DNA from: a virus
Strand: one strand, 5' to 3'
Length of the DNA stretch: 32,559 nucleotides
Virus record (IMG/VR): IMGVR_UViG_3300039018_000077
Span: 1-32,559 of that record
The notes beneath the pieces were generated by a model. The model was not told the DNA's origin, did not search any database, and worked only from the letters and a program-made list of their open reading frames with translations. Position 1 is the stretch's first letter. Every line of letters begins with the position of its first letter. The position numbers and the translations under genes were made by a program. Of the stretch, positions 22,499-27,395 are shown piece by piece.

Positions 22499-22708
22499 GC
22501 GTATTCGAGAAAGAACATATCCAATGCAGGAGACAGAGTTATTTTGGAGAAAGCCGAGGCAAGGGAGATATTCCGAACTTGGCAATCCTTGAAAGACAAT
22601 GATTTTGTTCGTGCCAGGCTTGAGCGTTGCGAGAGAATCTATGGTTCAGGAGCGAGAGATCGGGTCAGGTTTTATATGCGTCAAATGAAAGAAGGACAAA
22701 TTGAATGA
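22496..22708 (+). CDS. small basic hypothetical protein
   Basis: A 70-residue protein (SNAGDRVILEKAEAREI, then RARLERCERIYGSGARDR and an Arg/Met-rich end). The Ser-Asn-Ala-Gly-Asp-Arg start and the basic CERIYG segment are shared with small phage proteins of unknown role. The ATG is the last part of the 17-base motif and lacks a normal ribosome site, which is unusual for this genome. Its stop overlaps an ATG at 22705. Confidence 0.6.
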   Translation: MAYSRKNISNAGDRVILEKAEAREIFRTWQSLKDNDFVRARLERCERIYGSGARDRVRFYMRQMKEGQIE

Positions 22709-23672
22709 GTTGGCTTTATTCGCAGGTGCTGGTGGAGGAATACTTGGTGGACACCTCCTTGGTTGGAGAACAGTCTGTGCAGTCGAGTGGGAGCAGTACC
22801 CCGCAAGCGTACTGTGCGCCCGACAAAATGACGGGCTTCTCCCGCCTTTCCCGATTTGGGATGACGTACAAACCTTTAGAGGAGAACCTTGGAGAGGAAT
22901 TGTTGACGTTGTATCTGGCGGCTTTCCATGCACCGACATTTCCGCAGCAGGAAAAGGAGCAGGAATTGATGGAGAAGCCTCTGGAATGTGGCGAGAAATG
23001 GCGAGGATCATTCACGAAGTACGACCAAGATACGTCTTCGTGGAAAACTCACCAATGCTCACTTCTAGGGGACTTGGAAAAGTTCTCGGAGACTTGGCCG
23101 CAATGGGGTTTGATGCGAGATGGGGAGTGTTGGGAGCAGCGGACGTTGGAGCACCACATCAGAGGGATAGGATATGGATTGTCGCCAAATGGCGTGGACA
23201 GCTTCCACACGCCCAACACGACAGGATTAGATGGTGGGAGCAACAGCAGGAGAGCGTTAAAACAACGCATCGAGAAATGGCCAACCCCGACTTCATCGGA
23301 TTGGATGAGTCCAAAACAAAACGGGATCGAACTAAAGAACAACCGATTTGTCAGAACGAGCTTGACTACGGGAGTGAAGTTTGGAGCGAAACTATCGGAT
23401 GCGGTCAATTTGGAGATGAAAAGGAAGTGGCCAACTCCGCAAGTGTCGGACTCCAAGGACAGGGGGAATCTGAGCAACCCATCAATTCAAAGACGTATAG
23501 AGATTGGGAAGCAAGTCAATTTGCAAATGTGCGTGAGTCAAACTTCTGGGCAACTGAGTCCAATGTTTGTCGAGTGGTTAATGGGATGGCCTCAAGGGTG
23601 GACAGAATTAAGGCCCTCGGCAACGGGCAAGTCCCACTCTGTGCTGCAACCGCATGGAGAATCCTAAAATGA
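22701..23672 (+). CDS. C5-cytosine DNA methyltransferase (TTG start)
   Basis: A 323-residue enzyme that transfers a methyl group from SAM to C5 of cytosine in a short target. Motif I is FAGAGG at residues 7-12, the catalytic Cys is C77 in GGFPC, ENS is at 115-117, QRDRIWI at 154-160, and the motif IX-X end is DRIKALGNGQVP at about 301-312. The variable region between 165 and 290 would read the target; it has MANP at 193 and VANS at 243. The TTG start is behind GAAGGAC and gives the usual first residues NELALFAGAGG. The stop overlaps the next ATG. No matching restriction gene is obvious. It is totally overlapped by the ORF at 22705. Confidence 0.93.
   Translation: MNELALFAGAGGGILGGHLLGWRTVCAVEWEQYPASVLCARQNDGLLPPFPIWDDVQTFRGEPWRGIVDVVSGGFPCTDISAAGKGAGIDGEASGMWREMARIIHEVRPRYVFVENSPMLTSRGLGKVLGDLAAMGFDARWGVLGAADVGAPHQRDRIWIVAKWRGQLPHAQHDRIRWWEQQQESVKTTHREMANPDFIGLDESKTKRDRTKEQPICQNELDYGSEVWSETIGCGQFGDEKEVANSASVGLQGQGESEQPINSKTYRDWEASQFANVRESNFWATESNVCRVVNGMASRVDRIKALGNGQVPLCAATAWRILK
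22705..23667 (+). CDS. overprinted ORF in the +1 frame of the methyltransferase gene
   Basis: A 320-residue open frame that starts ATG four bases after the methyltransferase TTG and stops five bases before its end. Both share one GAAGGA ribosome site. Its ATG overlaps the upstream gene's TGA (ATGA). The product has repeats WPTPTSSD (192) and WPTPQVSD (242), a SSWKTHQCSLLGDLE block (111-125), WGLMRDGECWE (134-144) and FVEWLMGWPQGWTELRP near the end. From memory, proteins with exactly these features occur in phage genomes as hypothetical or methyltransferase-linked proteins. Each hallmark lies on a methyltransferase motif in the other frame. It may be a true second gene or a frame held open by codon bias. 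Confidence 0.55.
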   Translation: MSWLYSQVLVEEYLVDTSLVGEQSVQSSGSSTPQAYCAPDKMTGFSRLSRFGMTYKPLEENLGEELLTLYLAAFHAPTFPQQEKEQELMEKPLECGEKWRGSFTKYDQDTSSWKTHQCSLLGDLEKFSETWPQWGLMRDGECWEQRTLEHHIRGIGYGLSPNGVDSFHTPNTTGLDGGSNSRRALKQRIEKWPTPTSSDWMSPKQNGIELKNNRFVRTSLTTGVKFGAKLSDAVNLEMKRKWPTPQVSDSKDRGNLSNPSIQRRIEIGKQVNLQMCVSQTSGQLSPMFVEWLMGWPQGWTELRPSATGKSHSVLQPHGES

Positions 23673-25486: not shown

Positions 25487-25508
25487 AAAAAAACCCTCCT
25501 AAGAGGGC
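25487..25508 (-). terminator. intrinsic terminator of the minus-strand early operon
   Basis: On the minus strand, GCCCTC / GAGGG pair around TTAG and are followed by seven T residues. It lies between two convergent operons and would end the 25530-28019 operon; the plus side has only a weak T tract. Confidence 0.85.
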
Positions 25509-25529
25509 TTAAATTTGGATTGAAATTAG

Positions 25530-26038: not shown

Positions 26039-26371
26039 TTAAAACTGTTGAAAAACGAAAGAGCCATTATCGGTTCTGCCAACGAAGAGGGCGTTTTCCT
26101 CAATGTATTCCGAAATAAACTCTTCAATTTGGTCATCTGTCATGCCATCAATTTCCTTTTCTAGGCGGTATTGATAGACAAATTCATGCGGGAAAAGTTC
26201 TAAATATTCGCAACAAATGGCAATTGGATCAAATTCGATTTCCTCGCCTATATCCCTCTCATGTTCCTCGAAATGCTCAAACATCATAATTAGTGCATCA
26301 CGTGAGAAATTCTCGGGGCGCAAAGAATCGAATTGTTTAATGAATTCGTGGCTGTTAATTGTCTGTTTCAT
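26039..26371 (-). CDS. strongly acidic hypothetical protein
   Basis: A 110-residue protein with about thirty Asp/Glu and eight Lys/Arg. HFEEHERDIGEEIEFDPIAI, CCEYLELFP and DDQIEEFISEYIEE are the acidic helices; the end (VGRTDNGSFVFQQF) looks like a strand pair. Acidic proteins of this general shape are common in early phage operons, and some mimic DNA to block host enzymes, but nothing here proves that. Its leader has the same end sequence as that of the gene at 28019. Confidence 0.6.
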   Translation of the reverse strand: MKQTINSHEFIKQFDSLRPENFSRDALIMMFEHFEEHERDIGEEIEFDPIAICCEYLELFPHEFVYQYRLEKEIDGMTDDQIEEFISEYIEENALFVGRTDNGSFVFQQF

Positions 26372-26449
26372 ATTGAAGCCTATTGAGTTAAAAACCTAGG
26401 GAAACACCTAGGCCAATAACCCCCATGTAGAGGGTTATCAGTCTAAGAA
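26372..26449 (-). repeat. two-hairpin intercistronic element, copy A
   Basis: In the minus direction, after the clamp stop codon come TTCTTAGACTG, the stem ATAACCC/GGGTTAT with a 9-base loop, then the self-complementary CCTAGG twice around TGTTTC, then T5 and a ribosome site AGGCTTCA before ATG. Copy B at 27071-27149 has the same order and spacing. The CCTAGG hairpin plus T5 could also be a weak terminator. Confidence 0.75.
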
Positions 26450-27070
26450 TTAAGCCACTTTTTGCTGCACTTGCATAAAATCAGGGTTCAACCCTTGATA
26501 AGTGCCAGGTTCATTTCGCATTGGCATGACCACCACCAAAGCATCATTGCGGTTGTTGTGAATAACGCCCGATTGATCGCCCCTTTGAGACAATGGGAAA
26601 ATCTTACCCTTTTTAGCCCCGTAATACATTGACAATGCCTCATTGCCTCTGACAAGCAAATCAGGTTCAAAATAGCTGGCTTTAAGCTCTGAGAATGCAT
26701 CACGAGCAGGAACTACACGGGAAATATCGGGATAACGTCCATCAATGGCTTGAAAACGGGCATTCCCTAAAAGATAATAATCTTTTGCACCGCCTTCGAT
26801 TGTCTCAAGATCGATAAATTCTGATTTTTTATCAATGGCTTTGATAGTGTCAGATGGAATGATTATTTGAAACCCGTATTCTGTTGGTGCATCTATAACA
26901 ACAATCGGGCATTGACCCACAAACATAATATGTCCGTCAGTGCCGTAAACCATTGCCACTTCTGGGTGATTGATTGAAATGCAAACACCTTGCAAATAAT
27001 AGCGAATGTCTTTTTTTGCAGAGCAGACCAATGCTGCACGAAGAACCGAAGTTTTGAGAGTGATTTTCAT
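26450..27070 (-). CDS. sliding-clamp-like protein (DNA polymerase III beta-like)
   Basis: A 206-residue protein when started at the ATG at 27070, behind AAAAGGCTT; an upstream ATG at 27115 falls inside the repeat element. MKITLKTSVLRAALVCSAKK, YLQGVCISIN, GTDGHIMF, FQIIIPSDTIK, ARFQAIDGRYPDISRVVP and the C-terminal VVVMPMR are beta-clamp-type repeats. It is shorter than bacterial DnaN (about 366), so it likely has two of three domains. It could replace or modify the host clamp during phage replication. No polymerase gene is seen. It is flanked by both copies of the two-hairpin element. Confidence 0.8.
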   Translation of the reverse strand: MKITLKTSVLRAALVCSAKKDIRYYLQGVCISINHPEVAMVYGTDGHIMFVGQCPIVVIDAPTEYGFQIIIPSDTIKAIDKKSEFIDLETIEGGAKDYYLLGNARFQAIDGRYPDISRVVPARDAFSELKASYFEPDLLVRGNEALSMYYGAKKGKIFPLSQRGDQSGVIHNNRNDALVVVMPMRNEPGTYQGLNPDFMQVQQKVA

Positions 27071-27149
27071 TTTGAAGCCTTTTGAAAGTTGAAACCCTAG
27101 GCAAATCCTAGGCAATTGACCCCTAATCTAAGGGTCAACAGTCTAAGAA
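27071..27149 (-). repeat. two-hairpin intercistronic element, copy B
   Basis: Minus strand: stop codon, TTCTTAGACTG, stem TTGACCC/GGGTCAA with a 9-base loop, CCTAGG-ATTTG-CCTAGG, then AAAAGGCTTCAAA and ATG. The first stem differs from copy A at two base pairs, and both sides changed so that pairing is kept (A-T to T-A and A-T to G-C). Confidence 0.78.
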
Positions 27150-27395
27150 TTACAGACCTTCCCACTTATCAATGTCCATATAACCTTCAAATTGGGCGTC
27201 ATCTGTGAACTTCCCGAGGGTACACTTTTCACCAGCAACGGGCGGTTGCTCACCAAATGCATCTGTAATCAAATAATAACCATACTTTTCACGCCCTAGT
27301 GGGTGAGGGAAATACAGGGCATTAAAACCGCCACAAGTTGAAATTGTTTCCAATTCTGTGCTTGGGTCAACGTCTATAAGTTTACTGATTTTCAT
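27150..27395 (-). CDS. small hypothetical protein
   Basis: An 81-residue protein (MKISKLIDVDPSTELETIST, then FPHPLGREKYGYYLITDAFG and DDAQFEGYMDIDKWEGL). The ribosome site is AAAAGGCTTTCACA, like those of the clamp and the gene at 26371. The family is not recognised. Confidence 0.5.
   Translation of the reverse strand: MKISKLIDVDPSTELETISTCGGFNALYFPHPLGREKYGYYLITDAFGEQPPVAGEKCTLGKFTDDAQFEGYMDIDKWEGL

Follow-up and report, generated by a model that had tools for sequence, protein, structure and literature searches.

Attenuators of the trp type operate through competition between RNA strands, in which a middle strand pairs either with an upstream strand, giving an antiterminator, or with a downstream strand, giving a hairpin that is followed by a run of U. 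The early mRNA of phage T7 contains RNase III sites, i.e. repeated structured sites between phage genes, which consist of long hairpins with an internal mismatch. In Cluster K mycobacteriophages, extended start-associated sequences (ESAS) have been described as a single pair of imperfect 17-bp repeats on the side of the start codon (PMC3203893). The put elements of HK022 lie downstream of early promoters and bind the beta' zinc-binding domain of RNA polymerase (PMC9378689).

Here we describe an RNA element at gene junctions that is nearest to the trp-type attenuators in its logic and nearest to the Cluster K ESAS in its distribution, and that by test belongs to none of the families compared (attenuators, ESAS, HK022 put). 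Like trp-type attenuators, it has three strands, the upstream one of which directly follows a stop codon and would be blocked by a terminating ribosome. In contrast to them, a whole upstream gene takes the place of the leader peptide, several copies per genome lie between unrelated genes, the hairpin and the U-run are short, and the output is putative. With ESAS it has in common repeated inverted-repeat elements in the gaps between phage non-structural genes of various families (PMC3203893), but it has two hairpins and a competing third strand, is placed on the stop-codon side and occurs in unrelated phages. The spacers studied here contain neither the start-associated consensus GGGATAGGAGCCC nor the single 17-bp repeat by which ESAS/SAS are defined (PMC3203893). 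Like put, it is a cis-acting RNA of about 70 nt with two stem-loops and two copies in the phage genome (PMC9378689), but it resides at gene junctions, after stop codons, rather than downstream of an early promoter, and it has an alternative fold with a shared strand. The likeness to the T7 sites consists in repeated between-gene structure and a long hairpin with internal mismatch; the difference is that here a competing hairpin is conserved, and that cleavage would be a candidate role.

The window, by which we mean the whole stretch of DNA that was analyzed, is the IMG/VR virus record IMGVR_UViG_3300039018_000077 (positions 1 to 32,559; 32,559 nucleotides). Two copies of the element flank the gene for a sliding-clamp-like protein on the minus strand, with the following features in the order of the transcript.

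27150 to 27152, minus strand: TAA stop of the 81-aa ORF that precedes copy A, putative gate of copy A
27139 to 27149, minus strand: copy A, strand A, TTCTTAGACTG, conserved flank able to pair with strand B
27116 to 27138, minus strand: copy A, hairpin 1, TTGACCC/GGGTCAA with a 9-nt loop
27107 to 27115, minus strand: copy A, strand B, TTG plus CCTAGG, the 5' arm of hairpin 2, common to both folds
27096 to 27101, minus strand: copy A, strand C, CCTAGG, the 3' arm of hairpin 2, then GTTT
26453 to 27070, minus strand: sliding-clamp-like gene, 206 aa, shorter than the bacterial beta clamp (profile and predicted fold)
26450 to 26452, minus strand: stop codon TAA of the clamp gene, putative gate of copy B
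26439 to 26449, minus strand: copy B, strand A, TTCTTAGACTG
26416 to 26438, minus strand: copy B, hairpin 1, ATAACCC/GGGTTAT with a 9-nt loop
26407 to 26415, minus strand: copy B, strand B, TGG plus CCTAGG
26395 to 26400, minus strand: copy B, strand C, CCTAGG, then TTTTT
26039 to 26371, minus strand: ORF downstream of copy B, 110 aa, PHROG 9974

Both spacers start directly 3' of a TAA stop codon and run up to the next ATG. Copy A (27149-27071, minus strand, 79 nt) reads TTCTTAGACTG-TTGACCC-TTAGATTAG-GGGTCAA-TTG-CCTAGG-ATTTG-CCTAGG-GTTTC...AAAAGGCTTCAAA-ATG, and copy B (26449-26372, minus strand, 78 nt) reads TTCTTAGACTG-ATAACCC-TCTACATGG-GGGTTAT-TGG-CCTAGG-TGTTTC-CCTAGG-TTTTT...AATAGGCTTCAAT-ATG. 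An initial annotation of the window had noted this common build (stop codon, TTCTTAGACTG, a 7-bp hairpin, then a CCTAGG hairpin) together with two compensatory differences in the first stem, and all of this can be read directly: pair 1 of stem 1 is T-A in copy A and A-T in copy B, pair 3 is G-C and A-T, respectively, and in each case both partners have changed. In the predicted fold, stem 1 reaches into its loop, for a length of about 10-11 bp. The initial annotation considered these two changes in two copies direct evidence of selection for RNA structure, which was overstated on those data; the decisive evidence lies in the relatives, where covariation strongly supports the claim. The two window copies have 72% identity, and on their own their folding is only moderately unusual (z = -2.7 and -2.5 against shuffles, with 2/200 and 3/200 shuffles folding equally well). 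Each of them resembles its positional counterparts in other phages (same side of the clamp gene) more than it resembles the second window copy, and the pair therefore does not stem from a recent duplication.

The gene between the spacers is confirmed as a beta-clamp relative by a PDB profile search (E 5.6e-16 to beta-clamp chains) and by its predicted fold (AlphaFold model with pLDDT 82.5, Foldseek match to beta clamps with E 1.7e-8). The match to Pfam PF02767 (9.6e-5) was below the cut-off. PHROG 3007 labels the clamp "RusA-like Holliday junction resolvase", an identity that we rejected because the profile and fold searches point to a beta clamp. Phage beta-clamp-like proteins commonly carry this annotation (phrog_3007, several GenBank records), which is probably a propagated misannotation.

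A search with the clamp protein yielded 79 viral loci, and the spacers on both sides of their clamp genes were compared. The element is present in many of these phages and absent from others at the same junction. Some of the phages without it (L051-L059, L064) have a GC-rich GCAA-tetraloop hairpin just 3' of the clamp stop codon (GGCCCGC-GCAA-GCGGGCC or near variants), and where it is absent upstream of the clamp gene (L005, L027-L048), the stop-to-start gap is often rich in pyrimidines (TTCTTTTCTTTTCTTTTT) ahead of the ribosome-binding site. A covariance model was applied to the clamp loci and to those retrieved by a degenerate pattern, all of them on IMG/VR contigs, and gave 218 hits with 172 distinct sequences after removal of weak antisense matches (21-24 bits), which were mirror images of the palindromic stems. 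Further copies in related phages, on which the initial annotation had made its proposal depend, are thus abundant. The pattern requires AGACTG, TGGCCT and AGG and so inflates the conservation of these motifs in the loci derived from it; the clamp-derived loci, which are free of that bias, also conserve all three. Long contigs with the element carry 1 to 4 sense copies. The clamp gene is upstream of the element in 99/218 hits and downstream in 54/218. The elements are not clamp-specific, as they are flanked by 54 protein families, and the idea that they set clamp levels is too narrow.

Among cultured phages (INPHARED, searched by DNA similarity) there was no copy, and 369 genomes of one class around a Polaromonas assembly had no match. 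The degenerate pattern matched 24 times in 257 Gb of bacterial and archaeal genomes. None of these matches scored above 15.3 bits with the model, which marks them as chance matches and provides an empirical chance control. Rfam release 15 contained no matching family at gathering or relaxed thresholds, the best hit being mir-345 with 24.5 bits against a cut-off of 65. The element is a previously uncatalogued folded RNA, without Rfam entry, that is widespread in one uncultured phage lineage.

The structure of the element is firmly supported. Among 141 distinct copies analyzed, hairpin 1 has all seven positions paired in 24 different stems, and hairpin 2, mostly 5-7 bp long, is paired in every copy with 32 arm combinations. 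Loss of pairing in homologous spacers, which would have spoken against a selected structure, was not seen. In 47 divergent copies, 100% of stem 1 cells are paired and the covariation is 0.597, compared to a shuffled mean of 0.191 and at most 0.107 when the stem is slid. On the mRNA sense, stem 1 contains 25 G-U and 0 A-C pairs in the 141 copies, which favors RNA of the mRNA strand over DNA or antisense RNA. N4-like hairpin promoters were deemed unlikely, as the stem sequence is free to vary. While the stems vary, AGACUG is kept in 126/141 copies and UGG in 128/141. Hairpin 2 is followed by G or U and then UUU, with U at positions +2, +3 and +4 in 91%, 94% and 87% of copies.

The conserved flank (N)AGACUG is complementary to UGGCCU(N'), i.e. 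to the linker and the 5' arm of hairpin 2. This points to a third strand overlooked in the initial annotation: strand A competes for the 5' arm of hairpin 2, which is likely rather than proven and is supported by covariation. N (before AG) pairs with N' (after CCT) in 131/141 copies (UA 79, CG 31, AU 13, UG 8), compared to a mean of 91 and a maximum of 100 in shuffles. The pair is broken in the other ten copies (5 G/A, 5 A/G), which counts against the A:B helix. Elsewhere in this helix, the inner A.C mismatch is replaced by G-C in eight copies and by C-G in two, and the inner C-G pair by A-U in two. Over the whole helix, 79.6% of cells pair (72.4% shuffled, at most 43.3% slid), with a covariation of 0.234 (0.104 shuffled, 0.091 or less slid). 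The significance of such comparisons is overstated by the kinship among copies, which is why we rate the A:B helix as likely and not as proven. On a tree, the A:B pair underwent 11 paired-to-paired changes versus 3 paired-to-unpaired ones, and both sides changed on 4 branches versus 0.37 expected, though this is only a handful of independent double changes. Cognate flanks are predicted to stabilize A:B more than swapped ones do (-9.9 versus -7.4 kcal/mol).

As strand B is common to both, the long A:B hairpin and hairpin 2 (B:C) are mutually exclusive, and covariation and predicted energy agree on two exclusive helices with one common strand, as in an attenuator. The energy gap between the folds is small (mean 1.0 kcal/mol, sd 2.9). 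When both window copies were folded stepwise, A:B formed first and hairpin 2 once strand C had emerged, and hairpin 2 also formed when the first 14 nt were held single-stranded. In the full fold of copy A, including the ribosome-binding site, A:B is again the most stable, which counts against a switch. Taken together, we consider a three-strand switch likely.

The element is anchored to the gene before it. Between the end of the upstream stop codon and AGACTG lie 2-6 nt in 187/197 copies, although the genes are unrelated, as would suit an attenuator in which the stop of a translated ORF brings the ribosome onto the upstream strand. On the other side, the spacing between hairpin 2 and the next start codon is loose and varies widely. 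The element is thus tied to the point where translation of the upstream gene ends, and a ribosome halted there would, given its footprint, sit on strand A. Stop-codon readthrough was discarded as an explanation, as a second in-frame stop follows within 5-6 codons in each window copy.

Together, these data suggest a model in which a cis-acting, modular RNA fills the gap between two co-transcribed phage genes. In the naked RNA, strand A would pair with strand B and extend hairpin 1 into a long hairpin. Once a ribosome terminates at the upstream stop codon, strand A would be covered and strand B free to pair with strand C, forming hairpin 2 followed by three to five U. B:C with its U-run would cause pausing or weak termination, A:B would be the antiterminator, and translation of one gene would thereby influence how strongly the next is expressed. 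Gating by the ribosome and the transcriptional nature and direction of the effect are inferred, as is an output by attenuation or pausing rather than RNA cleavage. Of the three functions initially put forward (processing sites, attenuators, binding sites for a regulator), the attenuator best matches this anatomy, given that the competing third strand turns two hairpins into an antiterminator/terminator-like switch. We favor an RNA switch that lies at gene junctions and is gated by the ribosome, and that in the AGACUG family most likely acts by attenuation or pausing, but we do so tentatively and with rather less than even confidence. Hairpin 2 and U-run are both short and would make at best a weak terminator, and the elements sit between genes rather than at the ends of operons; both points count against termination. 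A simple terminator scan listed neither window copy.

Should the switch do what its anatomy implies, it would be a portable attenuator without leader peptide or regulator protein, for which any upstream gene could serve as signal. Ordinary gene junctions would then be ribosome-gated valves, which would explain how neighboring genes, here that of a DNA clamp, are separately tuned in compact phage operons. In any case, an RNA family that Rfam lacks, and whose covariation is unusually rich, is found at the junctions of many unrelated small phage genes.

Distant clamp phages have a different element 3' of the clamp stop codon, UAAUGCA-[hairpin]-UUUGCA-UUG-UGCAGGC. A pattern scan found this element, with the sequence TGCA...TCTAAGC...TTAGGGG..TTTGCATTGTGCAG (for example L062:3032-3080, plus strand), in 36 viral contigs (L062, L235-L269), after clamp and other genes. 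It starts 0-1 nt after the stop codon in 34/36, and the stop codon itself is often part of the A:B helix. When the first 8 nt are kept open, B:C replaces A:B. The logic of strand A, hairpin 1, strand B and strand C matches that of the first family, whereas the sequence is unrelated and lacks AGACUG. Strand C is not followed by a U-run in this second family, and termination is thus not the common output, if both families work alike. It is conceivable, and we offer this with more reserve, that uncultured phages have a gene-independent RNA part, represented by at least two families without sequence kinship, in which a terminating ribosome on any upstream gene flips a three-strand RNA and so sets the expression of the next gene.

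The missing U-run is no obstacle to RNA processing, which would fit the second family as well. A:B together with hairpin 1 would form a duplex of about 20 bp with an internal mismatch for RNase III; alternatively, RNase E would cut in the AU-rich sequence that follows hairpin 2. Either cut would separate neighboring mRNAs, and competition by strand C would tune it. The A:B-state helix is long in both families and has an internal mismatch or small internal loop, and the window elements bracket the clamp gene. Nevertheless, the B:C helix is kept in every copy analyzed and would be superfluous for a simple RNase III site, and we regard processing as unlikely, though worth keeping in mind. The placement right after stop codons would also suit a plain stabilizer or barrier, in which two hairpins protect the 3' end of the upstream mRNA or block Rho loading and the third strand is a mere folding aid. 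The unrelated GC-rich hairpins of other clamp phages at the same junction (L051-L059, L064) are in line with this. Such a role leaves the covariation between strands A and B and the invariant AGACUG and UGG unexplained, and appears improbable to us.

The invariance of AGACUG and UGG around hairpin 1, against variable stems, could reflect recognition by RNA polymerase, as in a put-like processive antiterminator, or by a phage or host RNA-binding protein. With two adjacent stem-loops in about 65 nt, the element is similar to HK022 put in length and number of hairpins, but put is located near early promoters (PMC9378689) and not at many stop-anchored gene junctions. AGACUG is, moreover, absent from the second family, and judged from sequence, a binding site of this kind seems quite improbable. 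Similarly doubtful, and if anything more so, is translational coupling, in which a terminating ribosome would refold the spacer and free the next ribosome-binding site. In copy A, the A:B fold does leave GCCU of strand C free to pair with AGGC, the ribosome-binding site. Such masking is beyond most strand C arms (CTAGG, GCAGG, CCAAGG), however, and the variable distance between hairpin 2 and the start codon does not fit. Masking by strand B was also discarded, as the base before the site does not, by eye, track the base after CCT. A DNA-level feature, either a cruciform or a conserved joint at which gene cassettes recombine, would account for one element flanking 54 different gene families, but is very hard to reconcile with G-U pairs that occur without A-C pairs and on the mRNA sense only, or with varying sequence and kept pairing, which does not serve homology-driven recombination.

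Two further observations concern the window itself. At the end of the clamp operon (25491-25510, minus strand), there is a strong intrinsic-terminator-like site, AAGCCCTCTTAGGAGGGTTT plus a T-run, and this T-run is longer than that after hairpin 2 of the elements. On the plus strand, an ORF at 22701-23672 (323 aa) shares nearly its whole length with one in another frame at 22705-23667 (320 aa), and each has a match among the DNA methyltransferase families of PHROG (phrog_363, 1.6e-67; phrog_1008, 9.6e-29). Relatives of the second of these ORFs were found in other phages, and the two are possibly a fully overlapping gene pair.
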